From assembly GCF_014180715.1 (NCBI RefSeq), contig NZ_JACEFC010000027.1, forward strand, positions 1-42,933: DNA of 42,933 bases, in the 5' to 3' direction. Below the pieces are notes generated by a model. The model searched no databases and was not told the origin of the DNA. It saw only the letters and a program-made list of their open reading frames with translations. This DNA comes from Nocardioides stalactiti (GTDB taxonomy: Bacteria > Actinomycetota > Actinomycetes > Propionibacteriales > Nocardioidaceae). This document shows positions 2,409 to 42,309 of this stretch, in pieces (positions within the stretch are counted from its first letter, which is position 1; each line of letters starts with the position of its first letter). Made by a program: the position numbers and the translations under genes.

Positions 2409-3503
2409 GTGGACATCGAGTCCTTCCTGCTGAACGTGGTCGACGTCGTCGACGAGACCGCCGACGCCCGCTCCATCAGCTTCGAGATCCCCGCGGAGGC
2501 TCCGGAGAAGTTCGTCTACAAGCCGGGCCAGTTCCTCACCGTGGCCGTGCCGAGCGACCAGACCGGGATCGCCGCGCGCTGCTACTCGCTCTCGAGCAGC
2601 CCGCACGACGGCGGCCCGCTCACCGTCACGGTCAAGCGGACGGTCGACGGCTACGCGTCGAACTGGATCTGCGACAACCTCAAGGTCGGCGACACGCTCC
2701 GCGTGCTGCCGCCGTCGGGCATCTTCTCGCCGGCCTCGCTCGACGCCGACCTGCTGCTGTTCGCGGGGGGCAGCGGGGTCACGCCGATCATGTCGATCAC
2801 GCGGACCGCGCTCGACCAGGGCACCGGCAAGATCGTCGTCTTCTACGCCAACCGCGACGAGAAGTCGGTCATCTTCGCCGACGAGTTCACCCGGCTCGCC
2901 GCCGAGAACCCCGAGCGGCTCCAGGTCGTCCACTGGCTCGAGTCGGTCCAGGGCATCCCGTCGCCGGAGCAGGTCAAGGCGTTCGTCATGCCCTACCTCG
3001 ACTACAACGCGTTCTGCTGCGGGCCGGCGCCGTACATGAAGATGGTCACCACCGTCCTGCGCGAGCTCGAGTTCCCGCGCGAGCGGCGGCACCAGGAGAA
3101 GTTCGTCTCCCTGGGCGGCAACCCGTTCGGCGACATCGAGGAGCTCAGGCTCGCGGCGAGCGAGATCGCCGACAACGACGACGGCAACGAGCCCGAGGAC
3201 GCGGCCGGTGAGCCGACCCTCGCCGGGCCGGTCAAGCTCGAGGTCGAGCTCGACGGTGAGGACCACACCTTCGACGACTGGGACCCGAAGGTGAAGCTGC
3301 TCGACTTCCTCGAGAGCAAGGGCGTCAAGGCGCCGTACTCGTGCCGCGAGGGCGAGTGCTCGGCGTGCGCGATCCGGTTGCTCGAGGGCGACGTCCGGAT
3401 GCTGCACAACGACGTGCTCGACAGCGAGGACCTCGACGACGGCATCCGCCTCGGCTGCCAGTCGGTGCCGCTGACCGACACCGTGCGGGTCACCTACAGC
3501 TGA
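2409..3503 (+). CDS. kshB: 3-ketosteroid 9-alpha-monooxygenase, ferredoxin reductase component KshB
   Basis: This 364-residue protein passes electrons from NAD(P)H through FAD and a plant-type [2Fe-2S] cluster to the KshA Rieske centre. The order is an FAD-binding barrel (R57-C-Y-S at 57-60), an NAD-binding domain (FAGGSGVTPIMS near 118-129 and CCGPAPYM near 203-210), an acidic linker around 252-270, and a C-terminal ferredoxin domain with C312, C317, C320 and C350. This is the class IA-like FAD-NAD-[2Fe-2S] order of known KshB proteins. The start is a GTG with only a weak purine-rich upstream site, consistent with coupling to the preceding genes. Other phenylacetate- or phthalate-type oxygenase reductases share the fold, but adjacency to kshA makes KshB the likely identity. 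Confidence 0.9.
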   Translation: MDIESFLLNVVDVVDETADARSISFEIPAEAPEKFVYKPGQFLTVAVPSDQTGIAARCYSLSSSPHDGGPLTVTVKRTVDGYASNWICDNLKVGDTLRVLPPSGIFSPASLDADLLLFAGGSGVTPIMSITRTALDQGTGKIVVFYANRDEKSVIFADEFTRLAAENPERLQVVHWLESVQGIPSPEQVKAFVMPYLDYNAFCCGPAPYMKMVTTVLRELEFPRERRHQEKFVSLGGNPFGDIEELRLAASEIADNDDGNEPEDAAGEPTLAGPVKLEVELDGEDHTFDDWDPKVKLLDFLESKGVKAPYSCREGECSACAIRLLEGDVRMLHNDVLDSEDLDDGIRLGCQSVPLTDTVRVTYS

Positions 3504-4433: not shown

Positions 4434-6377
4434 TCAGGCGAGGCGGGTGGCCAGGCGGGTGGCGGTCATGTAGGCGATCGACTCGATCGAGATCATCGGG
4501 TTGACCCCTGAGGCCGTCGGGAAGCACGACCCGTCGGCGACGTAGAGGTCCCGCAGGTCCCACGTCTGGCCGTCGGGGTCGATCGCGGAGGTCGCTGACG
4601 AGTCGCCCATCCGGGCCGAACCCATGATGTGGAGCGCAGCGAGGGTCATCCGGCCAGGTGCGGTGCCCGCCGCCCGGACGTCGGCCTCGAACGACGTCAG
4701 GTCGCCCCGCGCACCGGGTTCGTAGCTCACCGTCTGGTGGTGGGTGGTCGTGATCCGGCTGGCACCGGCGGCCTCCGCGATCCGTGCTGCGCCGACCAAC
4801 CCCTGGACGAGGTGCTCGGAGTCGCCGTCGGAGAGCTTGTAGCGGACGACCGGCTCGCCGTCCCGCTTCGTGCGGACGGTGCCGACGGAGTCGCGGTCAC
4901 GGAGGATCACCGCGATGCCGAGGGAGTCCCGCAGCTCGATCATCCGACGGCGGAAGGCCGTGCTGCCCCGCCAGCCGATGAAGCCCGTGCCGAGCCCGGG
5001 CGTGATCGGAGCGGTCTCGTAGAGGACGCCGTAGCCCTTGCCGTCGAGGTTGGTGAGCTTGTTGACGTAGCGGCTCTGCATCGCGCCGACCCACGGGTCC
5101 ACGCGCTCGCTCATCAGCCCCCAGACGGCCGTCGCCGGGTGCAGGCGCAGGTGTGCGCCGACGTTGGGGTTGGTGAGCCCGCTGCGGTGGAGCAGGGCCG
5201 GTGTCTGGATCGCGCCCGCCGCCGCGACGACCGCTCGGGCGCGCACCGTCACCGGGTGCCCCTCGGCGGTGACGCCCTCGACACCGGTCGCGCGGCCGTT
5301 CGCCTGGGTCACCGTGCGGGCCGTGACGCCGGTGTAGAGCCGGGCACCGGCCGCGGCCGCGTCCTCGAGCCAGGTCTTGGTCACCGACTGCTTGGCGCCG
5401 AGCCGGCAGCCCATGCCGCAACGTCCGCACTCGATGCCCTGGTCGCAGCCGATGACGTTGCGCGGCATGGCGGCGGACTCCCAGCCGAGCGCGAGCGCGC
5501 CGCGTTCCAGGATGGCGTCGCGCGGCGCCGCCCGGTCGTGGTCGGTGTTGACGCCGAGCCGGGCGCAGACGGCGTCGAGCGCGGCGTCGTACTCCTCGGT
5601 GACGAACTGCTTGGCGCCGAGGTCGGCCCACTCCTGACGCACGTGGTCGGGCGTCCGGAAGGACGTCGTGTAGTTGACGACCGTGCCGCCCCCGAGACCA
5701 CGGCCGGCGAGCAGGTTGATCTGGCCCTCGGCGGTCGCCTGCGGGGCGAGGGCGTAGAGGTTGAGGAAGCCGGACTCCTCGCTGCCGTCGAAGTCGTTCT
5801 CGTCGTGGTGGTCGCCCGCCTCGAGGACGACGACGTCGAGGCCGGCCCCCGCCAGAACGGCCGCCGCCGTCCCGCCACCCGCACCCGAGCCGACGACGAC
5901 CACGTCGCAGTCGAGCGTGGTCGCACCCGTCGCACGGTGGGTCGTGAGCGTGCGCGGCGGGGCGTCCGCCCGGACCCCGAGCGGCCCGGAGTAGCCCATC
6001 GGCTCCCACAGCGGCCCGCCGCCGCGCAGGTAGTAGGGCAGCAGCGCCGCGCTCTTGAGCGCGGCGAAGAGTGCGCGCTTCTGGGCGAGGTTGGAGTCCG
6101 AGAGCGAGAGCAGGAAGCGCTCCCTTCCGGCCTGGCCGCGCTGCGAGAAGCGCTGGGGCCGGCCGGTGAGCGCCAGCGCGAACCCGCGGGTGTCCCAGAT
6201 CCGCAGCAGGCCCTTGAGCTGTCGCAGCTCGGGAGCACGCGGATTGGCCGCCGCCACCTCGAGCGTGAGGTCGACAGCACCGCACTGGCTGGCCGCCGGG
6301 ACACCCGCACCGTCACCGGGAGCGAAGGTGTCACAGATGAGGCGCATGGCCTCGCGCTCGCGGGCGCTGAACGTCAT
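4434..6377 (-). CDS. GMC-family FAD oxidoreductase, long-chain-alcohol-oxidase-like
   Basis: This 647-residue flavoprotein has an extra N-terminal helical region (about 1-150), then the FAD Rossmann motif [19 protein letters not shown] near 161-179, then the GMC C-terminal domain with HIMGSARMG and SGVNPMIS, which carry the usual catalytic His and Asn positions. Four cysteines, C311, C317, C320 and C324 ([14 protein letters not shown]), lie in the middle. The layout recalls long-chain alcohol oxidases and cholesterol-oxidase-type GMC enzymes. A -10 TAGCCT lies 7 bases before ATG 6377 on this strand, so it is probably the leaderless first gene of an operon with the SDR. A substrate alcohol or sterol is inferred from the neighbours only. 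Confidence 0.87.
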
Positions 6378-6677: not shown

Positions 6678-6881
6678 ATGACGACTGGCGTCGTGAAGTG
6701 GTTCAACGAGACCAAGGGTTTCGGTTTCATCGCACAGGACAGCGGCGAGGGTGACGTCTTCGTCCACCACACCGCTATCGCCGGCACGGGTTACAAGAAC
6801 CTGGCCGAGAACCAGCGCGTCGAGTTCGATGTCGCGCAGGGCCCGAAGGGCCTGCAGGCGGAGAACGTCCGCGGCCTCTGA
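6678..6881 (+). CDS. cspA: Cold-shock protein, CspA family
   Basis: This 67-residue single cold-shock domain binds single-stranded nucleic acid and acts as an RNA chaperone. The RNP1 motif KGFGFI and the RNP2 motif DVFVHH are both present, and the start [18 protein letters not shown] is typical of actinobacterial members. AAGGAG lies 6-11 bases before the ATG. It is a single-gene unit, with a long leader upstream and a strong hairpin 12 bases after the stop. The paralogue letter cannot be assigned. Confidence 0.96.
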
Positions 6882-16089: not shown

Positions 16090-16985
16090 GCGGGGTCTTG
16101 AGCGAGGTGGAGGACGACGGCCAGGCAGGCGTCGGCGAGCTGGTCGTCATCACCGGGATGACCGGCGCCGGCCGCAGCACCGCGGCGAAGGAGCTGGAGG
16201 ACCTCGGGTTCTTCGTCATCGACAACCTCCCGCCGAGCATGCTGGCCGAGGCGGTGCGCATCGTCGACGCCGGCCAGGGCCGTAGCCAGCGGATCGCGGT
16301 CGTGGTCGACGTCCGCTCCGGCTCCTTCTTCCAGGGCCTGCGCAGCGCGCTCGCCCACGGTGTGCGAGGCCGCAACACCACGTTGGTCTTCCTCGACGCG
16401 ACGATCGACGTCCTGGTCCGCCGGCAGGAGGCGGCGCGCCGCCCCCACCCGCTCCAGGAGGGCGGACGGCTCCTCGACGGTCTGGAGCGCGAACGGATCG
16501 TGCTCGCCGACCTGCGCAGCGACGCCGACCTGGTCATCGACACGACCAATCTCAACGTCCACCAGCTCACCGACCGGATCGCCGAGTCGTTCGGCACGCC
16601 CGAGACCACCCAGCTGCGGGTCACGACGATCAGCTTCGGCTTCAAGTACGGCATCCCGGTCGACGCCGACTACGTCGCCGACATGCGGTTCCTGCCCAAC
16701 CCGCACTGGGTGCCCGAGCTGCGCGCCCACTCCGGACGGGACCAGGACGTCGCCGACTACGTCCTCGGCCGGCCCGGCGCGCAGGAGTTCCTCGACCAGT
16801 ACGTCGGGCTGCTCACGGGTGTGGCCGAGGGCTACCTGCGCGAGGGCAAGCGCTTCATGCGGGTCGCGATCGGCTGCACCGGCGGCAAGCACCGCAGCGT
16901 GGCGATGAGCGAGGAGATCGCCCGCCGCATGCAGGAGATCGGCTACGTCGCCCGCGCCATCCACCGCGACCTCGGGCGGGAGTGA
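16086..16985 (+). CDS. rapZ: RapZ/YvcJ-family nucleotide-binding protein
   Basis: This 299-residue P-loop protein starts at ATG 16086, overlapping the uvrC stop. The Walker [10 protein letters not shown] has Arg in place of Lys, which I recall in other actinobacterial members. The C-terminal domain has the family signatures [26 protein letters not shown] and [16 protein letters not shown]. In E. coli RapZ controls glmS through small RNAs; in Gram-positives the role of YvcJ is less defined, and nucleotide or RNA binding is the safe statement. The uvrC-rapZ-yvcK-whiA order is conserved in actinobacteria. Confidence 0.94.
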
Positions 16986-17980
16986 TGACACCCAGCCATC
17001 GGCCGCAGGCCTCCTCCCTCGAGCGCGCCCAGGCGGTGGTGGCACTCGGAGGCGGCCACGGGCTGCACGCCTCGTTGACCGCGTTGCGGATGCTCGTCGA
17101 CGACCTGACCGTCGACGAGCTCACCGCGGTCGTGACGGTGGCCGACAACGGCGGTTCCTCGGGGCGGCTGCGCGGTGAGTTCGGGGTGCTTCCGCCGGGT
17201 GACCTGCGGATGGCGCTCGCCGCGCTCTGCGGCGACGACGAGTGGGGCGACACCTGGGCGCGGGTGCTCCAGCACCGGTTCGAGGGCCACGGGGAGATGC
17301 GCGGGCACGTGGTCGGCAACCTGCTGATCGTCGGTCTCTGGGAGCTCCTGGGCGACCACGTCGACGCGCTCGACTGGGTCGGACGGCTGCTCGGAGCCAA
17401 GGGCCGGGTGCTGCCGATGGCGATGACCCCGATGGACATCACCGCCGAGGTCCGCGGCCTCGGCGCCGACCCCGATGCGCTCACGACGGTCCGCGGTCAG
17501 GTCGAGGTCGCGACCACCGACGGGGTCATCGACTCGGTCGCCCTCGACCCGCCCGACCCCGACGTCACCCCCGCGGCGCTGGCCGCGATCGAGGAGGCCG
17601 ACTGGGCGGTGCTCGGGCCGGGTTCGTGGTTCAGCTCGGTCATCCCGCACCTGCTCGTCCCGCAGCTGCGCGATGCGCTCGCCGCGACCGAGGCACGGCT
17701 CATCGTCGTACTGAACCTCGCCGAGCAGCAGGGCGAGACCCACGGCTTCGGTCCCGCCGACCACCTGTCGGTGCTGGCCGAGCATGCGCCCGACCTCAAG
17801 GTCCACACGGTGCTGGCCGACCGGGAGAGCGTGGGGGAGGAGCTCGACGACCTCCGGTCGGTGGTCACGGCTCTCGGCGCGCGCCTCGTCATCGACGACG
17901 TCGCGATGAGCGACGGGACCCCCCGCCACGACCCGACCCTGCTCGCCGCTGCCTACACCCGGATCATGCAGACCACCTGA
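16985..17980 (+). CDS. yvcK: YvcK/CofD-like protein (gluconeogenesis factor family)
   Basis: This 331-residue Rossmann-type protein carries the family motifs VVALGGGHGLHASL near the start, VTVADNGGSSGRLRGEFGVLPPGDLRM, and LGPGSWFSSVIPHLL. YvcK homologues bind UDP-sugars and affect growth on gluconeogenic carbon sources and cell-wall synthesis; the mycobacterial homologue is CuvA. The sequence resembles CofD transferases, but the context here is YvcK. ATG 16985 shares one base with the rapZ stop; the GTG immediately before it is an equally possible start. Confidence 0.92.
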   Translation: MTPSHRPQASSLERAQAVVALGGGHGLHASLTALRMLVDDLTVDELTAVVTVADNGGSSGRLRGEFGVLPPGDLRMALAALCGDDEWGDTWARVLQHRFEGHGEMRGHVVGNLLIVGLWELLGDHVDALDWVGRLLGAKGRVLPMAMTPMDITAEVRGLGADPDALTTVRGQVEVATTDGVIDSVALDPPDPDVTPAALAAIEEADWAVLGPGSWFSSVIPHLLVPQLRDALAATEARLIVVLNLAEQQGETHGFGPADHLSVLAEHAPDLKVHTVLADRESVGEELDDLRSVVTALGARLVIDDVAMSDGTPRHDPTLLAAAYTRIMQTT

Positions 17981-22259: not shown

Positions 22260-23741
22260 TCAGGGCACCGGGACCGTGGCGCCGAAGGCGCTGAAGGGGC
22301 CCGTTCCCACGGCGTTGGTAGCGCGCACCCGGCAGTGGTAGTTCTTTCCGCCGGACAGCAGGGTCACGTTCAAGGGGCTGGACGTGCCCGACGTGGTCCG
22401 TGCCACGCCGCCGTCGGTGCTGAGGCACTGCGCGGTGAACCCGGTGATCGCGCTGCCTCCGGTCGATCCCGGGGTGAATGCCACCGAGATCGCTCCGGAC
22501 GACGGGGTCGAGGAGGTCACCGTCGGGGCAGCCGGTGCCGTCGCGCCGACCATGACCGTGGCGCCGAAGGCGCTGAAGGGGCTCACCCCCACGGCGTTGG
22601 TCGCGCGCACCCGGCAGTGGTAGTTCTTCCCGCCGGACAACGACGTCACGATCAAGGGACTGGTGGGCCCCGTCTTTGACCTCGCCACGCCGCCGTCGGT
22701 GCTCAGGCACTGCGCGGTGAACCCGGTGATCGCGCTGCCTCCGGAGGATCCCGGGGTGAACGCCACCGAGATGGCTCCGGACGACGGGGTCGAGGAGGTC
22801 ACCGTCGGCGCGGCCGGCGCTGTCGCGCCGACCGGGACCGTGGCGCCGAAGGCGCTGTAAGGACTCGTTCCCACGGCGTTGGTCGCGCGCACCCGGCAGT
22901 GGTAGTTCTTCCCGCCGGACAGCAGGGTCACGTTCAAGGGGCTGGACGTGCCCGACTTGGTCCGTGCCACGCCGCCGTCGGTGCTGAGGCACTGCGCGGT
23001 GAACCCGGTGATCGCGCTGCCTCCGGAGGATCCCGGGGTGAACGCCACCGAGATAGCTCCGGACGACGGGGTCGAGGAGGTCACCGTCGGCGCGGCCGGT
23101 GCCGTCGCGCTCGGCAGGGAGCCGACGTCGCCCGCGTTGTTGTGAGGCACGGGACTGGCGGCGAGGTCGAAGTCGGCGGCACTGTCGTTGGTGTCGTCCC
23201 CGGGCTCCAACAAGGACGGATTCCCGGCGCTGATGTCCCGGAGCGCGGCGCCACCGCCGACAGGGAGGCCGCTTGCCGGCCGGAAGGGGTTGCCCACCCC
23301 GGTAGGGCTGCCCGTGTAGTCACCCCAGGCGAAACAGTCGACAGCCGTCTCGAAGCAGACCTTTCCACCGGTCGGCACCAGCGACGGGGTGATGACCAGG
23401 TCGGCTGTGATGTCGAAGAGTGACTCCGCTTGGGCGGTTGCGATCAGGATGTAGCCCTGGTCGGACCCGTTCGAGACGTTGCTGGGAAAGACGAAGGTGT
23501 CGGTCAACGTTCCGGCCGCGTCGAAGACGAAGAGCTCGTGGTTGGCAACGACGTTCTGGTTGGCCGCCCGCATCTGCAGCTCGACGAACTGCGCGTCGCC
23601 GGGGGTGTCGACCGTCCCGATCCAGACCTGGCGGATGTTCATGAGGTGGAACGCGGCGTACGACGGCACCGCACTGATGGCGAGCACGGCGGGGACAGCG
23701 ACCGCGATCGCCATCAGGAGTCGGAGCAGGCGGATCCCCAT
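22260..23741 (-). CDS. Secreted protein with a lamin-tail-like head and three fibronectin-III repeats
   Basis: This 493-residue protein has a signal peptide at about 1-29 (MGIRLLRLL, hydrophobic core, PSYAA). Residues about 30-130 (NIRQVWIGTVDTPGDAQFVELQ) resemble lamin-tail-type beta domains. Residues about 130-208 are Gly/Asp-rich, with two cysteines. Three nearly identical 94-residue fibronectin-III domains follow (about 209-302, 303-396 and 397-490), each starting APAAPTVTSSTPSSGAISVA. There is no sortase motif or membrane anchor, so it is probably released or wall-associated by other means. It lies opposite in strand to tpiA and secG and between duplicated tpiA ends, which suggests insertion. 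Its role is unknown; binding to a surface or polymer is a guess. Confidence 0.88.
   Translation of the reverse strand: MGIRLLRLLMAIAVAVPAVLAISAVPSYAAFHLMNIRQVWIGTVDTPGDAQFVELQMRAANQNVVANHELFVFDAAGTLTDTFVFPSNVSNGSDQGYILIATAQAESLFDITADLVITPSLVPTGGKVCFETAVDCFAWGDYTGSPTGVGNPFRPASGLPVGGGAALRDISAGNPSLLEPGDDTNDSAADFDLAASPVPHNNAGDVGSLPSATAPAAPTVTSSTPSSGAISVAFTPGSSGGSAITGFTAQCLSTDGGVARTKSGTSSPLNVTLLSGGKNYHCRVRATNAVGTSPYSAFGATVPVGATAPAAPTVTSSTPSSGAISVAFTPGSSGGSAITGFTAQCLSTDGGVARSKTGPTSPLIVTSLSGGKNYHCRVRATNAVGVSPFSAFGATVMVGATAPAAPTVTSSTPSSGAISVAFTPGSTGGSAITGFTAQCLSTDGGVARTTSGTSSPLNVTLLSGGKNYHCRVRATNAVGTGPFSAFGATVPVP
22272..23117. repeat. Three tandem 282-bp repeats encoding the fibronectin-III domains
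   Basis: The unit recurs at 22272, 22554 and 22836 with a period of exactly 282 bp (94 codons). Identity is high even at synonymous positions, so the copies arose by recent duplication or are kept alike by recombination. Repeat number may vary between strains. Confidence 0.9.
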
Positions 23742-24334: not shown

Positions 24335-24694
24335 TTGGCTGGTGGAGGCAACGCGATTCGCGGAAGCCGTGTCGGTGCGGGCCCCATGGGCGAGGCCGAG
24401 CGCGGCGAGGCAGCGCCCCGACAGGCGGTCACCTACTTCTGCGCCCACGGCCACCGGTCCGTGATCGCCTTCTCCGTCGAGGCCGTCGTGCCCGACTCCT
24501 GGGACTGCCCCAAGTGCGGGCTTCCGGCCGGCCTCGACTCCGAGAACGCCCCGCCGGCGCCGAAGATCGAGCCCTACAAGACCCACCTCGCCTACGTGAA
24601 GGAGCGCCGCTCCGACAAGGAGGCCGAGGTCATCCTCGACGAGGCGATCCAGCTCCTCCGCTCCCGTCGGAAGTCCGGCGAGATCATCTTCTGA
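24335..24694 (+). CDS. rbpA: RNA polymerase-binding protein RbpA
   Basis: This 119-residue actinobacterial transcription factor binds the housekeeping sigma factor and RNA polymerase and stabilises the open complex. It has a flexible N-terminal tail (1-30), a zinc-type core with C36, H40, C58 and C61 (YFCAHGH, WDCPKCG), and a C-terminal basic linker and sigma-interaction helix (YVKERRSDKEAEVILDEAIQLLRSRR). The start is a TTG at 24335 preceded by GAGGAG; the protein beginning MAGGGNAIRGSRVG matches known family starts. Tandem 22-bp repeats begin four bases after the stop. Confidence 0.97.
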   Translation: MAGGGNAIRGSRVGAGPMGEAERGEAAPRQAVTYFCAHGHRSVIAFSVEAVVPDSWDCPKCGLPAGLDSENAPPAPKIEPYKTHLAYVKERRSDKEAEVILDEAIQLLRSRRKSGEIIF

Positions 24695-24698
24695 CGAA

Positions 24699-24755
24699 CC
24701 CGCGGGGTTTGGTCGCCGAGCCCGCGGGGTTTGGTCGCCGAGCCCGCGGGGTTTG
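24699..24755. repeat. 22-bp tandem repeat array A (two copies plus a partial)
   Basis: Units begin at 24699, 24721 and 24743; the first two are CCCGCGGGGTTTGGTCGCC plus GAG and the third stops after 13 bases. The unit contains the palindrome CCCGCGGG. The array lies immediately after rbpA and, as 22 is not a multiple of three, does not encode a peptide repeat. Confidence 0.85.
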
Positions 24756-24768
24756 TCTGAAACCGCCA

Positions 24769-24870
24769 GGTTCGTCGGCCATTGTGTGCAGGTTCGTGGG
24801 CCGAAGTGTGCGGGTTCGTGGGCCGAAGTGTGCGGGTTCGTGGGCCGAAGTGTGCGGGTTCGTGGGCTAG
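24769..24870. repeat. 22-bp tandem repeat array B (four copies plus a partial)
   Basis: Units begin at 24769 (diverged), 24791, 24813 and 24835 (identical), with a partial at 24857. The unit runs GGTTCGTGGGCCGAAGTGTG plus CG. The last partial copy runs into the pgl stop codon (24867-24869). Together with array A it fills almost the whole gap between the convergent rbpA and pgl genes. Confidence 0.88.
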
Positions 24871-25592
24871 AGGAGGGCGGCGGCGTCGTGGTCGAGGAAC
24901 CAGGTGGTCTCCTGGGTGCCACGGACGCCGCGGGCGGGGGTGTCGGTGACGGTGCCGTCCTCGGCGAGGGCACGGCGTACGGCGTCGGCCTTGGCCTCGC
25001 CGCTGGCGAGGAACCACACCGCCGCTGAGTGGGCCAGCGCCTCGAGCGTCAGCGACACCCGGTGCGACGGCGGCTTCGGCGAGCCGGTGACGCCGACGGC
25101 GATGTCGTGGGCGTCGAGCTGGGGGAAGCCGGGGAACAGCGACGCGACGTGGCCGTCGGGACCGACGCCGAGCATCGTCACCAGGAACTCGTGGGCGGGG
25201 GAGCCGCGGAGCTCGGCGCCGTAGGCCCGGGCGGCTTCGTCGACCGAGCAGGCCGACGACGGCGGCGGGACCTCGTGGACCCGGTGGTCCGGCACGCCGA
25301 GCACGTCGAGGAACGCGGCGCGGGCCTGGCCCGCGTTGCGGTCGGGGGAGTCGCGGTCGACGTAACGCTCGTCGCCGAACCAGAAGTCCACCGCACCCCA
25401 GTCGACTCCGGAGTCCGGAGCGAGCCGGGCGACCTCGCGGTGGACCGCGTCGGCGATGGTGCCGCCGGTCAGGCAGATCGCGGGGACGTGGCCGGCCGCC
25501 TGGCTGTCGGCGATCCGGTGGAGGAGCTCGCCGGCGACGGCCGTCGCCAGCGTCCCCGGGTCGGCGTGGACCTCGACCGTCGGCTCGCTCAC
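24867..25592 (-). CDS. pgl: 6-phosphogluconolactonase
   Basis: This 241-residue enzyme hydrolyses 6-phosphogluconolactone in the oxidative pentose-phosphate branch. Family features are [12 protein letters not shown] near the phosphate site, [26 protein letters not shown], and [15 protein letters not shown]. The GTG at 25592 overlaps the pgi stop as GTGA. In related genomes zwf and opcA usually stand between pgi and pgl; here nothing does. The stop lies inside the last repeat of array B. Confidence 0.94.
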
Positions 25593-27256
25593 AGCCGGTG
25601 CTCCCGGTAGTACGCGATGAGTGCTCGCGTCGACGCGTCCTGCTGGGCCAGGGCGTCGGCGTCGCCGCCGACGGCTGGCGTGACCTGGAGGGCGAGCTGC
25701 TTGCCGAGCTCGACGCCCCACTGGTCGAAGCTGTCGATGCCCCACACGACGCCCTGGGTGAACGTGATGTGCTCGTAGAGCGCGACCAGCTGACCCAGCA
25801 CTGCCGGGGTCAGCGCAGGCGCCATGATCGACGTCGTCGGGCGGTTGCCGGAGAACACGCGCGCGGGGACGATCGCCTCCGGAGTGCCCTCGGCCCGCAC
25901 CTCGTCGGCCGTCTTGCCGAACGCCAACGCCTTGGTCTGGGCGAAGAAGTTGGCGAGGAAGAGCTCGTGCACGTCGACGCTCTGCCCGTCGTGGGCGTCG
26001 GTGAGCGGGTGCGCGGGGTTGGCAACGGCGATGAAGTCGGCCGGGATCAGCCGGGTGCCCTGGTGGATGAGCTGGTAGAACGCGTGCTGGCCGTTGGTGC
26101 CGGGCTCGCCCCAGAAGATCTCGCCGGTGGCACTGGTGACGGGGCTTCCGTCCCAGCGCACCCCCTTGCCGTTGGACTCCATCGTGAGCTGCTGGAGGTA
26201 CGCCGCGAACCGGTGCAGCGACTGGGCGTAGGGGAGCACCGCATGGGTGTGGGCGCCGAGGAAGTTGACGTACCAGACGTTGAGCAGCCCCATGAGGGCC
26301 GGCACGTTCGCCTCGAGCGGCGTCGTCCGGAAGTGCTCGTCGATGGCGTGGAAGCCCGCCAGGAACTCGGCGAAGCGCTCGGGGCCGACGGCGATGACCA
26401 CGGACGTGCCGATCGCGGAGTCGACGGAGTAGCGCCCGCCCACCCAGTCCCAGAAGCCGAAGGCGTTGGCGGGGTCGATCCCGAACGCCGCGACCTTGTC
26501 GAGCGCGGTCGAGACGGCGACGAAGTGCCGCGCGACGGCCCCGCGGGCGTCGTCGAGGCCGGCGAGCAGCCAGTCACGGCAGAGCCGGGCGTTGGTGAGG
26601 GTCTCGAGCGTCCCGAACGTCTTGCTCGCCACGATGAACAGGGTCGTCGCCGGGTCCAGGTCGGCGAGCGTCTCGGCGGTGTCGGTCGGGTCGATGTTGC
26701 TGATGAACCGGCACTCGATGTGCTCGTGCCGGTACGGCTTGAGCGCCTCGTAGGCCATCACCGGCCCGAGGTCCGAGCCGCCGATGCCGATGTTGACGAC
26801 AGTGCGGATCCGCTCGCCGGTCGCACCGACCCAGGCACCCGACCGGACCTGATCGGCGAACGCGTAGACCCGGTCCAGCACCTCGTGGACGTCGGCGACC
26901 GTGTCTTGGCCGTCGACCTCCAGGCGGGTGCCGGCCGGGAGCCGCAGCGCCGTGTGGAGGACGGCCCGGTCCTCGGTGACGTTGATGTGCTCCCCGGCCA
27001 GCATCGCGTCGCGACGCTGCTCGAGGCCCACCGCGGCGCCGAGCTGCAGGAGGGCCTCGACGACCGCCTCGTCGACGAGGTTCTTGGACAGGTCGACGTA
27101 GAGGTCGGCTGCGGTGAAGGTCAACCGGTCGACCCGGCCGGGGTCGTCGGAGAACGCCTGGCGCAGGTCCACCGTCCCGGCGGCCGCGAGCTCGGTCAGG
27201 CGCGCCCACGCCGCGGTCGTCGTGGGGTCAACGGGTCCGGTCGTCGGGCTGGTCAC
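25589..27256 (-). CDS. pgi: Glucose-6-phosphate isomerase
   Basis: This 555-residue enzyme interconverts glucose-6-phosphate and fructose-6-phosphate. The sugar-isomerase signatures [46 protein letters not shown] and [13 protein letters not shown] are all present. The GTG start at 27256 lies 4 bases after the tal stop, and pgl overlaps its end. It links glycolysis to the pentose-phosphate genes of this operon. Confidence 0.97.
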
Positions 27257-27260
27257 CGGA

Positions 27261-28355
27261 TCAGCCCATCTGGCCCTTGACCGTCTCCAGCAGCTCCAGC
27301 CAGGAGGTCTTGAACTTGTCGACGCCCTCGGTCTCGAGCGTCACGAAGACGTCGTCGAGGTCGATGCCGACCCGGGCGAGCTGACCGAACAGGGCCTGCG
27401 CCGAGTCGGCCATCCCGCTGACCTGGTCACCGGAGACCTCGCCGTGATCGGCGAACGCGTCGAGCGTCTTCTCCGGCATCGTGTTGACCGTGTCCGCGAC
27501 GACGAGGTCCGTGACGTACAGCGTGTCGGGGTAGGCGGGGTTCTTCACGCCCGTGGACGCCCACAGCGGCCGCTGCACGTGGGCTCCGGCATCTGCCAGC
27601 GCCTGCCACCGCGGGCCGGAGAAGACCTCCTGGTACGCCGCGAAGGCGATCCGTGCGTTGGCCACCGCAGCCTTGCCACGCAGCGCCAGGGCCTCGTCAG
27701 TGCCGATCTTGTCGAGGCGGGCGTCGATCTCGGTGTCGACGCGCGACACGAAGAAGGACGCCACCGAGCGGATCGTCGCCAGGTCGACGCCGTTGTCCCT
27801 GGCCTGCTCGAGGCCGGTGAGATAGGCGTCCATCACCGCGCGGTAGCGGTCGGTGGAGAAGATCAGCGTGACGTTGACGCTGATGCCCTCGGCGATGACC
27901 GCGGTGATCGCCGGTAGCCCCTCGAGGGTCGCCGGGATCTTGATGAGCGCGTTGGGCCGGTCGACCGCAGCCCACAGCGCCTTGGCCGAGGCGACCGTCG
28001 CGTCGGTGTCGTTGGCCAGGGTCGGCTCGACCTCGATGGAGACCCGGCCGTCGTCGGACGTCGCGGCGGCGACGGGCGCCAGGATGTCGCAGGCGTTGCG
28101 GACGTCGTCGGTCGTGAGGTCGAAGATCACGCGGTCGACGTCGGCGCCCTGGGCGACCAGGCCGCGCACCTGCTCGTCGTACCGCTCGCCGTCGGAGATG
28201 GCGGCGGCGAAGATCGTGGGGTTCGTGGTCACCCCGACGACCGACTTCTCGGCGACCAGCGCCGCGAGGTTGCCGGTCTCGATCCGTTCGCGCGACAGGT
28301 CGTCGAGCCAGATGGACACACCGGCGTCCGCCAGTGCCTTCAAACGATCACTCAT
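27261..28355 (-). CDS. tal: Transaldolase
   Basis: This 364-residue enzyme moves a three-carbon unit between sugar phosphates. The Schiff-base Lys is K139 in [22 protein letters not shown] lies near 41-53 and the start [22 protein letters not shown] is typical of the actinobacterial type. An AAGGAG site lies about 5 bases before ATG 28355. The gap from tkt is 46 bases, and pgi starts 4 bases after its stop. Confidence 0.97.
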
Positions 28356-40851: not shown

Positions 40852-41298
40852 ATGAGCCAAGACCTGGATGCCCTGTATCAGGAGATCATCCTCGACCACT
40901 ACAAGAACCCCCACGGCAAGGGCCTGCGTGAGGAGTTCGAGGCCGAGGTCCACCACGTCAACCCCACCTGCGGCGACGAGGTCACCCTGCGGGTGCACCT
41001 CAGCGACGGGGTCGTGGACGACGTGTCGTACGACGCGCTCGGCTGCTCCATCTCGCAGGCCTCGGCCTCGGTGCTCTACGACCTCGTGGTCGGCAAGAAC
41101 GTCGATGAGGCGATGGCGATCCACGAGGAGTTCCTGACCCTCATGCAGGGCAAGGGCAGCGTGGAGCCCGACGAGGAGACCCTGGAGGACGCGATCGCGT
41201 TCGCCGGTGTCGCGAAGTTCCCGGCGCGCGTGAAGTGCGCCCTGTTGTCGTGGATGGCGTGGAAAGACGCCACCGTTCAAGCTGGAGGAGACCGATGA
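40852..41298 (+). CDS. sufU: SufU, zinc-dependent sulfur transfer protein
   Basis: This 148-residue IscU-like protein has C40, D42, C65 and C129 (NPTCGDEV, LGCSISQAS, RVKCALLSW) and the insert between the second and third cysteines that marks SufU rather than IscU. In Gram-positives SufU binds zinc with these residues and accepts sulfur from SufS. ATG 40852 follows the sufS stop closely, and its own stop overlaps sufT as ATGA. Confidence 0.96.
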   Translation: MSQDLDALYQEIILDHYKNPHGKGLREEFEAEVHHVNPTCGDEVTLRVHLSDGVVDDVSYDALGCSISQASASVLYDLVVGKNVDEAMAIHEEFLTLMQGKGSVEPDEETLEDAIAFAGVAKFPARVKCALLSWMAWKDATVQAGGDR

Positions 41299-41681
41299 CC
41301 GAGAGCACCATCGACCACGGCGATCTGCCGGAGGTCCCTGAGGCTGCTGGTTCGACCGGCGCCGTCGGCACGACCACGACCGTCGACGACGTCACCGAGG
41401 CGATGAAGGACGTCGTCGACCCCGAGCTCGGCATCAACGTCGTCGACCTCGGCCTCGTCTACGGCGTCCACCTCGACGACTCGTCCAACGTGGTCCTCGA
41501 CATGACGCTCACCTCGGCCGCGTGCCCGCTGACCGACGTGATCACCGACCAGACGGAGTCCGCGCTCGAGGGCCTCGTCAACGACGTCGCCATCAACTGG
41601 GTCTGGATGCCCCCGTGGGGCCCGGACAAGATCACCGACGACGGCCGCGAGCAGCTCCGCGCCCTCGGCTTCAACGTCTGA
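41295..41681 (+). CDS. sufT: SufT-like MIP18/DUF59 Fe-S maturation protein
   Basis: This 128-residue protein has a flexible acidic and Thr-rich N-terminus (1-30) and a DUF59 domain with KDVVDPELGINVVDLGLVYGV, the reactive Cys in TSAACPLTD, and VWMPPWGPDKITDDGREQLRALGF. Family members, including PaaD and SufT, help mature or repair Fe-S proteins. It is the last gene of the suf operon; a 22-bp repeat array begins 17 bases after the stop. Confidence 0.94.
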   Translation: MTESTIDHGDLPEVPEAAGSTGAVGTTTTVDDVTEAMKDVVDPELGINVVDLGLVYGVHLDDSSNVVLDMTLTSAACPLTDVITDQTESALEGLVNDVAINWVWMPPWGPDKITDDGREQLRALGFNV

Positions 41682-41698
41682 CGGTTCGAGGCCTCAGC

Positions 41699-41802
41699 AG
41701 GGGCGACTCGCGCCCGCAACAGGGGCAACTCGCGCCCGCAACAGGGGCAACTCGCGCCGGCAACCCTGGCAACTCGCGCCGGCGACCGGGGCGATTCGTC
41801 GG
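41699..41802. repeat. 22-bp tandem repeat array C (four copies plus a partial)
   Basis: Units begin at 41699, 41721, 41743 and 41765, with a partial at 41787. The unit is close to AGGGGCAACTCGCGCCCGC plus AAC, and divergence grows toward the right. The array fills the gap between the convergent sufT and SRPBCC genes, ending at the SRPBCC stop codon. Its sequence differs from arrays A and B, but the period and the kind of site are the same. Confidence 0.88.
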
Positions 41803-42309
41803 TCAGACGGTGACGCCGTACTTCTCGTCGGTGTAGCGGCGCAGGTTCTTGAGGAACCAGCGGAACGTCAGGTTCATGACCGGCTTGCCGAGCGGGACGA
41901 AGAAGCGGGAGGGCCCGGCGACCTCGAGCGCGAGGGTCCAGGTGAGGCTGCAGCCGGTGGCGGTGCGCACGACGTCGTAGCGCTCTGCGAAGGCCTGGAC
42001 GGTCTTCTCCGAGGACTCGTTGAAGCGGAACGCCATCCGCGTCGGCGGCTCCCAGAGCAGGAACTCCTCGTCGCCGACCAGGCCGCCGCGCATGTCGACG
42101 ACCCGGCGGGTCCCGACCCCGCGGGGCTCCGGGGTCGTCCAGGTGACGTGGGTGATCACCTTCGCCCAGCGCGGCCACGACGTGGCGTCCGCGAGGACCT
42201 CGAAGAGCTGCTCGGGGGTGATGGCGAGCTCGACGGTGTTGGCGTAGCGGAAGCGGGCGGTGTCGACGAAGTCGACGTCGACCAGCCGGCAGGGGTGCAT
42301 CTCGGTCAC
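41803..42309 (-). CDS. SRPBCC (START-like/polyketide cyclase) family protein
   Basis: This 168-residue protein has the SRPBCC helix-grip pattern: ITPEQLFEVLADATSWPRWAKVITHVTW, then a strand run (EEFLLWEPPTRMAFRF), and a long C-terminal helix (LGKPVMNLTFRWFLKNLRRYTDEK). Such folds bind hydrophobic ligands in a central cavity. GTG 42309 is chosen because TAGCCT lies 6 bases upstream on this strand, giving a leaderless start; ATG 42300 is an alternative. A perfect KstR-like operator overlaps that promoter, so a lipid or steroid ligand is plausible, but this is inference. Confidence 0.86.
   Translation of the reverse strand: MTEMHPCRLVDVDFVDTARFRYANTVELAITPEQLFEVLADATSWPRWAKVITHVTWTTPEPRGVGTRRVVDMRGGLVGDEEFLLWEPPTRMAFRFNESSEKTVQAFAERYDVVRTATGCSLTWTLALEVAGPSRFFVPLGKPVMNLTFRWFLKNLRRYTDEKYGVTV

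Follow-up and report, generated by a model that had tools for sequence, protein, structure and literature searches.

The window analysed here is a stretch of 42,933 nucleotides from Nocardioides stalactiti (contig NZ_JACEFC010000027.1), a member of a large genus that is high in G+C. Towards its right-hand end a sufT-like gene and a gene of the SRPBCC family converge on a gap of 121 bp, most of which is filled by a tandem array of 22-bp units (Table 1). Tandem Repeats Finder returns this array with a period of 22, 4.3 copies, 89% matches and a score of 134, thereby confirming the array that the first-pass annotation had described after sufT; four windows of 44 nt lie in register, at spacings of 22, 22 and 22. 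In the ungapped scan that was used on all gaps the array reaches 41686–41798 with a score of 56, where simple shuffles of 300 sampled gaps gave a maximum of 12.5.

A second convergent gap, that between rbpA and pgl, contains two arrays on opposite strands: both belong to one unit family (family B, below) and in N. stalactiti they enclose no gene. Heuristic gene calls agree with the earlier count of arrays in two of the seven convergent gaps of the window. Elsewhere in the window there are three copies of a 282-bp tandem unit (22267–23110, 89% matches). These are coding sequence inside a fibronectin type III domain gene (22260–23741, minus strand) and are unrelated to the 22-bp arrays.

Table 1. 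Genes and arrays of the two array-bearing convergent gaps of the window.
Feature	Position	Strand	Repeat units	Setting
rbpA (PF13397)	24335–24694	+		left neighbour of the B pair
Left array of the B inverted pair	24695–24755	+	2.8 diverged units	directly after the rbpA stop
Right array of the B inverted pair	24769–24867	-	4.5 units	ends on the pgl stop
pgl (PF01182)	24867–25745	-		right neighbour of the B pair
sufT-like FeS assembly gene (PF01883, FeS_assembly_P)	41295–41681	+		left neighbour of the focal array
Focal array, family A	41698–41792	+	∼4.3 units of 22 bp (GGGGCAACTCGCGCCCGCAACA)	beside the SRPBCC stop
SRPBCC / Polyketide_cyc2 gene (PF10604)	41803–42309	-		right neighbour of the focal array; stop at 41803

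Arrays of this kind could be ordinary intrinsic hairpin terminators that have been amplified in tandem. Two observations speak for such an origin: the unit of family B is in part a palindrome, and the left array in the rbpA–pgl gap does fold better than its shuffles (z −4.12). However, the right array there gains little or nothing over its shuffles (z −1.53), the same is true of RNA from the focal gap (z −1.35 and −0.05), the focal unit has no T tract, and no terminator-like site was found within 41500–42000. The weak folding of the focal gap and the lack of a terminator-like site nearby argue against a simple hairpin terminator: we reject that identity for the focal array, and find the explanation scarcely credible for the arrays at large.

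The sufT and SRPBCC genes are adjacent and convergent in 6 of 29 relatives, and none of the six syntenic congeners has an array of 21–32 bp at the orthologous gap. By eye, the gap in two congeners (G025 and G064; L093 and L095, downstream of the SRPBCC stop) holds other repeat-like sequence of similar length, and the gap may thus collect different elements in different species.

Unit families, gap types and geometry

Gaps of 40–700 bp were surveyed in 28 genomes (988 gaps, delimited by our own heuristic gene caller with a codon-position GC filter, which sets some starts too late). Arrays with a period of 21 or 22 were found in 18 of 130 convergent gaps, 7 of 537 co-directional gaps and 0 of 321 divergent gaps. 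Within N. stalactiti the period is 21 or 22 in 16 of the 19 gaps with strong tandem repeats, and in each of the 16 gaps with arrays of these periods an array edge lies no more than 16 bp from a stop codon. The fixed period and the convergent, stop-abutting setting, which the first-pass annotation had noted for the arrays of the window, are therefore general; neither a broad range of periods nor an equal frequency across gap types was found.

Other species of the genus possess arrays of their own. Among seven congeners sampled at 80–200 kb, six contain arrays, with periods of 22 and 21 bp (G025), 22 bp (G051), 32 bp (G064 and G063) and 21 bp (G092 and G001); no arrays were found in the 80 kb of the seventh, G056. 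Twenty more congeners, at 18–20 kb each, yielded few arrays, most of the short samples having none. G013 has a 22-bp array and G012 an inverted pair of 30/31 bp, each in a gap called divergent, G020 has a two-copy 22-bp repeat, and lone periods such as 24, 25, 29 and 41 occur among the twenty: given this mixture the period of 21 or 22 is not universal. At RbpA loci of the family a 21-bp array is present in 1 of 30, and PGL used as bait in the named genomes gave one Nocardia match. A different, shorter-period class of 3′-end repeat also occupies convergent gaps. It consists of short arrays of 12–15-bp units with CAGTCC (e.g., GCTCAGTCCTCCGGC), found at C101:14312–14355 and C57:24118–24159 in N. 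stalactiti and at L195 5890–5930 in G020.

The N. stalactiti genome contains at least three dispersed families of units: A and B, with units of 22 bp, and D, with units of 21 bp. The focal unit, earlier held to be unrelated to the others, is not peculiar to its gap: it is the unit of family A, of which there are 12 arrays in 1.19 Mb (1,190,350 bases in 31 contig pieces, or ∼26% of the genome); a 15-mer taken from it matched several further 22-bp-spaced arrays in the genome. Eleven of positions 1–17 are identical across all 12 array consensuses, although the conservation of positions 1–13 is partly built in, because they were the search seed (positions 15–17 lie outside it); positions 18–22 hold 0.4–1.2 bits. 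The tandem A pattern is found in 1 of 215 genomes of the genus, namely N. stalactiti itself (20 matches), and in 0 of 214 congeners, and the A-unit pattern had no match in the named genomes, a set to which the species itself may not belong. At up to three mismatches family B numbers 111 sites genome-wide, against 1 for a reversed-pattern control, and family D 98 sites, against 2. Units are contiguous, 21–22 bp in length, with short variable linkers of 4–5 bp that are alike inside one array and unlike between arrays. Which unit an array has depends on its family and its species; the locus does not determine it.

Array copies occur as inward-facing inverted pairs, or as half-pairs, that hug stop codons. 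Pairs make up 21 of 29 clusters in family D, 11 of 26 for the unit of the congener G051, and 10 of 34 in family B among the matches listed, where several lone sites at three mismatches may be chance. Three inverted A pairs were seen (at C9, C71 and C243), and since all three have their left array on the minus strand and its right-hand partner on the plus strand, we read the focal array as the right-hand half of an inverted pair. The search for a clean empty/filled site, made with one strain of the species, found none, and no movement of an array was seen.

The geometry of the arrays was derived from site coordinates alone, using 98 of 98 D sites, 100 of 111 B sites (those among the matches listed) and 58 of 58 sites in G051. 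All 42 inverted pairs (21 D, 10 B among the matches listed, and 11 in G051) face inward and none is reversed; the inward order of gene-less pairs is also the order found in the gene-bearing copies described below. Spacing on the same strand is 21 bp in 48 of 48 instances for D, 22 bp in 55 of 56 for B among the matches listed (the other is 44), and 22 bp in 19 of 21 for G051 (the others are 44 and 66). Start-to-start distances between facing arrays cluster modulo ∼10.6 bp, which is the best period in a free scan of 5–20 bp. With uniform random distances of 20–110 bp as the null, none of 3000 random sets was as good at 10–11.2 bp, whether all values or unique values were used, and 55 of 3000 were as good once values within 1 bp had been merged. 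Some pairs may share descent, which may inflate the phasing, and we therefore place most weight on the last of these figures. Both the spacing of units and the distance between facing arrays are as would be expected if helical phase counted, in keeping with the importance that the first-pass annotation gave to phasing.

Could the arrays have arisen one gap at a time? Replication slippage or local duplication might make 22-bp arrays independently in each gap, with the mechanism itself setting the period. Similar periods do recur in several species, and the linkers, being alike within an array and unlike between arrays, indicate that local expansion does occur. Against independent origins, however, stands the recurrence of one core in dozens of unrelated gaps of a single genome, together with the absence of the tandem A unit from 214 congeners, the strict inverted pairing and the link to one gene family; as the source of the arrays we think independent slippage or duplication very improbable.

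A nuclease gene between inverted arrays

The gene family in question came to light in four congener stretches, where it lies between arrays; these are our discovery cases (G064, G025, G063 and G092). In G064 and G025 a gene of ∼320 codons lies between two arrays inside the rbpA–pgl gap; in G063 the gene and its arrays adjoin rbpA, with a sodium symporter gene following before pgl; in G092 they lie beside a MoaA-like gene. The protein combines an AbiEi-like N-terminal part with a C-terminal Vsr-like (DUF559/MTES_1575) nuclease domain. AbiEi models (PADLOC) match all seven aligned members, at best with 6.6e-16, and Pfam AbiEi_4 is matched by three of the seven at E≤1 (the first member at 15 bits, against a cut-off of 25). 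At the same threshold the C-terminal domain matches PF18741 (REase_MTES_1575) in six of seven members, with scores below the Pfam curated cut-off in the four members listed, and PF04480 (DUF559) in three of seven. Eighteen columns are invariant in the alignment of seven, including D245, E256, D258 and G259 (numbered as in the G064 protein), and we read D245, E256 and D258 as a putative active site of PD-(D/E)XK type. The closest solved structure, 3hrl, is a weak match (E 0.12).

Homologs are widespread: among 209 genomes of the genus, 175 contain between one and four matches at E≤1e-20, counts that may be low since the best 10 candidates per genome were scored. No relatives were found in viral contigs. 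The frames directly beside the four congener copies encode RbpA, 6-phosphogluconolactonase, a sodium symporter, DUF3099 and a MoaA-like radical SAM protein, with one frame of 47 aa that has no match; Pfam found no toxin family and no methylase among these nine neighbour frames, one of which is the unmatched frame.

Three strong homologs were located by protein in N. stalactiti (C110:640–1479, C212:5758–6609 and C146:16758–17576). A-like matches at C110 were known earlier; for the other two homologs, flanks of families B and D were predicted in writing before the search. As predicted, D units flank the C212 gene on both sides (5634–5652, plus strand; 6746–6806, minus strand) and B units flank the C146 gene on both sides (16526–16565, plus; 17698–17759, minus). 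The first-pass annotation had preferred a mechanism favouring 22-bp phasing to the spread of one element. That preference finds no support: at least three families are dispersed, and two of them, B and D, each enclose one nuclease gene between their units. At C110 the A-like units (417–431 and 504–518, spacing 87) lie on one side of the gene only. The 15-mer by which they were located matches the control 128 times, and two more of its matches fall inside the gene; the link between family A and the C110 gene is tentative.

In G051 the prediction named the gene C34:180387, which proved to lack flanks of the tested unit. That unit, learned from gene-less gaps of this genome, occurs at C35:26121–26205 and 27345–27363, and one of its three homologs (C35:26309–27166) lies between those copies. 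The rbpA–pgl gap of G051 (L146 8401–8529 = C7:48401–48529) is occupied by arrays that enclose no gene and belong to the family linked to the C35 gene, and the G051 homolog closest to the rbpA–pgl gene of other species sits on C34. This gap may have been reoccupied by another array family.

We also scored the best inverted match between the 250 bp on either side of 1,179 called genes of 600–1,400 bp. The five top-scoring genes (41–70.5) are all nuclease homologs, the next gene scores 18, and the 99th percentile is 16. Three of the five are discovery cases (G063, G064 and G092); the remaining two, C35 and C209 of N. stalactiti, are independent, being weak homologs to which no array had pointed. 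An HMM made from three Tsukamurella proteins, a choice blind to the arrays, recovers the same seven homologs in the genus sequence examined. The low scan scores of the two G025 homologs (8.0 and 8.5) are explained by the caller having started both genes internally. With starts adjusted and flanks of 300 bp, all seven genus homologs, four of which are discovery cases, score 34–70.5.

Palindromes are present in the flanks at C35, at C209 and at the second G025 gene; in 1.19 Mb of N. stalactiti the flank arms of C35 and C209 had no copy elsewhere. Two of these weak homologs, N. stalactiti C35:28185–29395 (L078 8185–9395) and G025 L145 17514–18491, have similar palindromic flanks (CAGTTTCACCG..CGGTGAAACTG), which look to be shared by descent rather than dispersed. 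The palindromic flanks of the C209 homolog (L060 11336–12572) measure ∼66 bp.

Beyond the genus, Tsukamurella tyrosinosolvens (Mycobacteriales) has inverted flanks at two of three homologs (scores of 43.5 and 26.5; the third scores 10.5). Among four distant homologs in all, inverted flanks were absent from two, L229 of Tsukamurella and L230 of Nonomuraea, the Nonomuraea score of 8.5 having been obtained with guessed gene limits. One of the Tsukamurella flanks has matches at 20 places in 8 records, and for the other there are 7 places in 5 records. The former being palindromic, a single copy of it may have been counted twice. It is a ∼64-bp palindrome that flanks a DUF559 gene (L227) at 2250–2330 and 3213–3280, and the 8 records in which it is matched are labelled as plasmids of one strain.

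A proposed element and its relation to known systems

The dispersal of the families, their strict orientation, fixed spacing and helical phasing, the linkage of gene and arrays and the domain make-up of the protein are all computed from the genomes. Their best reading is that the arrays are binding sites, and at the same time non-autonomous, REPIN-like relatives, of nuclease-encoding elements. The focal array is, in our judgement, quite probably a gene-less copy from a dispersed element family that is built from the sites of an AbiEi-like/Vsr-like fusion nuclease.

For the binding, cleavage, mobility and copying route of the proposed element we infer the following scheme. A complete element would consist of a nuclease gene with units on its left pointing rightward and units on its right pointing leftward. 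Gene-less copies would be inward inverted pairs or half-pairs, parked directly behind stops and mostly in convergent gaps. The AbiEi-like N-terminal part would bind each unit of 21–22 bp. Neighbouring units, and likewise two facing arrays, would present themselves on one face of the helix, so that bound proteins could contact each other and bridge both arms. The Vsr-like C-terminal domain would then nick or cut at the arrays, and repair or recombination would copy the arrays into new 3′ gaps. Because enzyme and repeat would change together, each species would come to have its own unit.

The location of the arrays also invites a regulatory explanation: the protein, as a resident DNA-binding factor, would recognise arrays behind stops as selected operators, which spread by selection and not as a selfish element and serve, for example, as roadblocks (TTF-I-like) that halt RNA polymerase before it enters the convergent neighbour. 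A network of this sort would account for the proximity to a stop (within 16 bp in 16 of 16 array gaps of N. stalactiti), for the presence of period-21/22 arrays in 18 of 130 convergent as against 0 of 321 divergent gaps, and for fixed spacing combined with helical phase. The same location, however, is predicted if 3′ gaps are simply a tolerated parking place. Moreover, operators of a resident factor sit poorly with a tandem A unit that occurs in 0 of 214 congeners, with six of six syntenic sufT gaps that have no such array, with conserved acidic residues in the nuclease-like domain of the protein, and with inverted repeats that flank the nuclease gene itself. We regard the regulatory network as unlikely.

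Still less likely, and in our view decidedly doubtful, is a role in defence, whereby the arrays would be protected sites that titrate or license the nuclease against foreign DNA, the dispersed copies marking the chromosome as self. The AbiEi-type domain is known from abortive infection systems, and the small number of genes (one to four in 175 of 209 genomes, with the best 10 candidates per genome scored) beside many array copies also speaks for such a role. Yet no toxin or methylase adjoins the four congener copies, and self-marking does not need clustering behind stops.

Taking the arrays as relatives of a nuclease-encoding element, we lean, a little more cautiously, towards the view that they define an element class of which we found no report: in it AbiEi-like/Vsr-like nucleases would maintain helix-phased arrays of their binding sites, specific to each species, and would disperse copies without the gene into 3′ gaps, in what would be an independent invention of the REPIN–RAYT life style. 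The open literature yielded no paper that ties DUF559/MTES_1575 or AbiEi–nuclease fusions to dispersed repeats, the search having excluded subscription papers and preprints. What would make the class new is that its enzyme is unrelated and its repeats are designed differently; counted by life style, it may resemble a known kind.

If enzyme and repeat truly pair, then REPIN–RAYT-like systems arose at least twice from unrelated nucleases, and the persistence and spread of such repeats can be compared between two independent cases. The proposed element would give context to two poorly understood labels, AbiEi-domain protein and DUF559/MTES_1575, and would account for a conspicuous group of tandem repeats between genes in a large genus of actinobacteria. 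For the 175 of 209 genus genomes that have homologs, the flanks of each homolog would predict the binding site of its enzyme; Tsukamurella L227 provides a named case in which the same logic of gene and repeat can be studied.

Among known systems the N-terminal part of the protein points to AbiEi. AbiEi is reported to bind, as monomers, a pair of inverted 23-bp repeats separated by 3 bp and to bend the DNA, and Rv2827c to bind four such repeats with gaps of 4 and 13 bp (PMC7319586). Given sites of 23 bp, a unit of 21–22 bp corresponds roughly to one AbiEi-type site. By analogy, helix-phased units and facing arrays would suit proteins in contact with one another both along one face of the helix and over the spacer. 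The likeness to this type IV toxin–antitoxin system lies in the AbiEi-type N-terminal part. The differences are that the C-terminal half is here a nuclease-like domain, that no nucleotidyltransferase (DUF1814) toxin is found among the nine neighbour frames of the four congener copies, and that the sites are dispersed through the genome, whereas AbiEi operators are confined to one promoter.

The C-terminal domain resembles Vsr-like proteins of the DUF559/MTES_1575 group through its matches to PF18741 and PF04480, and plausibly supplies the nick or cut. Elsewhere a Vsr-like protein, VsrA, acts in mismatch repair (PMC12907096) and DUF559/Vsr-like domains are parts of multi-domain conflict proteins (PMC3710099); unlike in the genomes described here, no dispersed repeats are mentioned for VsrA or for the conflict proteins in the available portions of these two papers.

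CRISPR arrays have repeats with longer unique spacers, whereas the units here are contiguous, 21–22 bp long and joined by linkers of 4–5 bp. In MITE-like non-autonomous elements, gene-less copies keep the ends of the gene-bearing copy. The gene-less copies described here do likewise, although their ends are tandem arrays of units the size of a protein site, and no transposase of a known class was identified.

The closest parallel is with REP/REPIN–RAYT systems, for which a low-copy nuclease gene flanked by inverted repeat copies, many gene-less extragenic copies in inverted pairs, and a repeat sequence that varies by species are described (PMC2817692, PMC3116915). The enzymes differ: that of the proposed element matches AbiEi and MTES_1575/DUF559 and not an IS200/IS605-type HuH transposase, no Y1 transposase family being among the Pfam matches (E≤1) of the seven aligned members. 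So do the repeats, which here are helix-phased tandem arrays of 21–22-bp (also 30–32-bp) units in place of single REP hairpins. A REP is a hairpin preceded by a conserved motif (PMC8266576); among the arrays, the focal one folds like shuffles, the left B array folds well, and palindromes flank C35, C209 and Tsukamurella L227. In its organization the proposed element is nonetheless like a REPtron: in all seven homologs of the genus sequence examined, with starts adjusted, as well as at C212 and C146 of N. stalactiti and C35 of G051, the gene lies between inverted repeats, and families D and B and the G051 unit have many extragenic cognate repeats, largely as inverted pairs, whereas C35 and C209 of N. 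stalactiti have no such copies in the 1.19 Mb. Gene-less pairs thus stand to a low-copy nuclease gene as REPINs stand to RAYTs.
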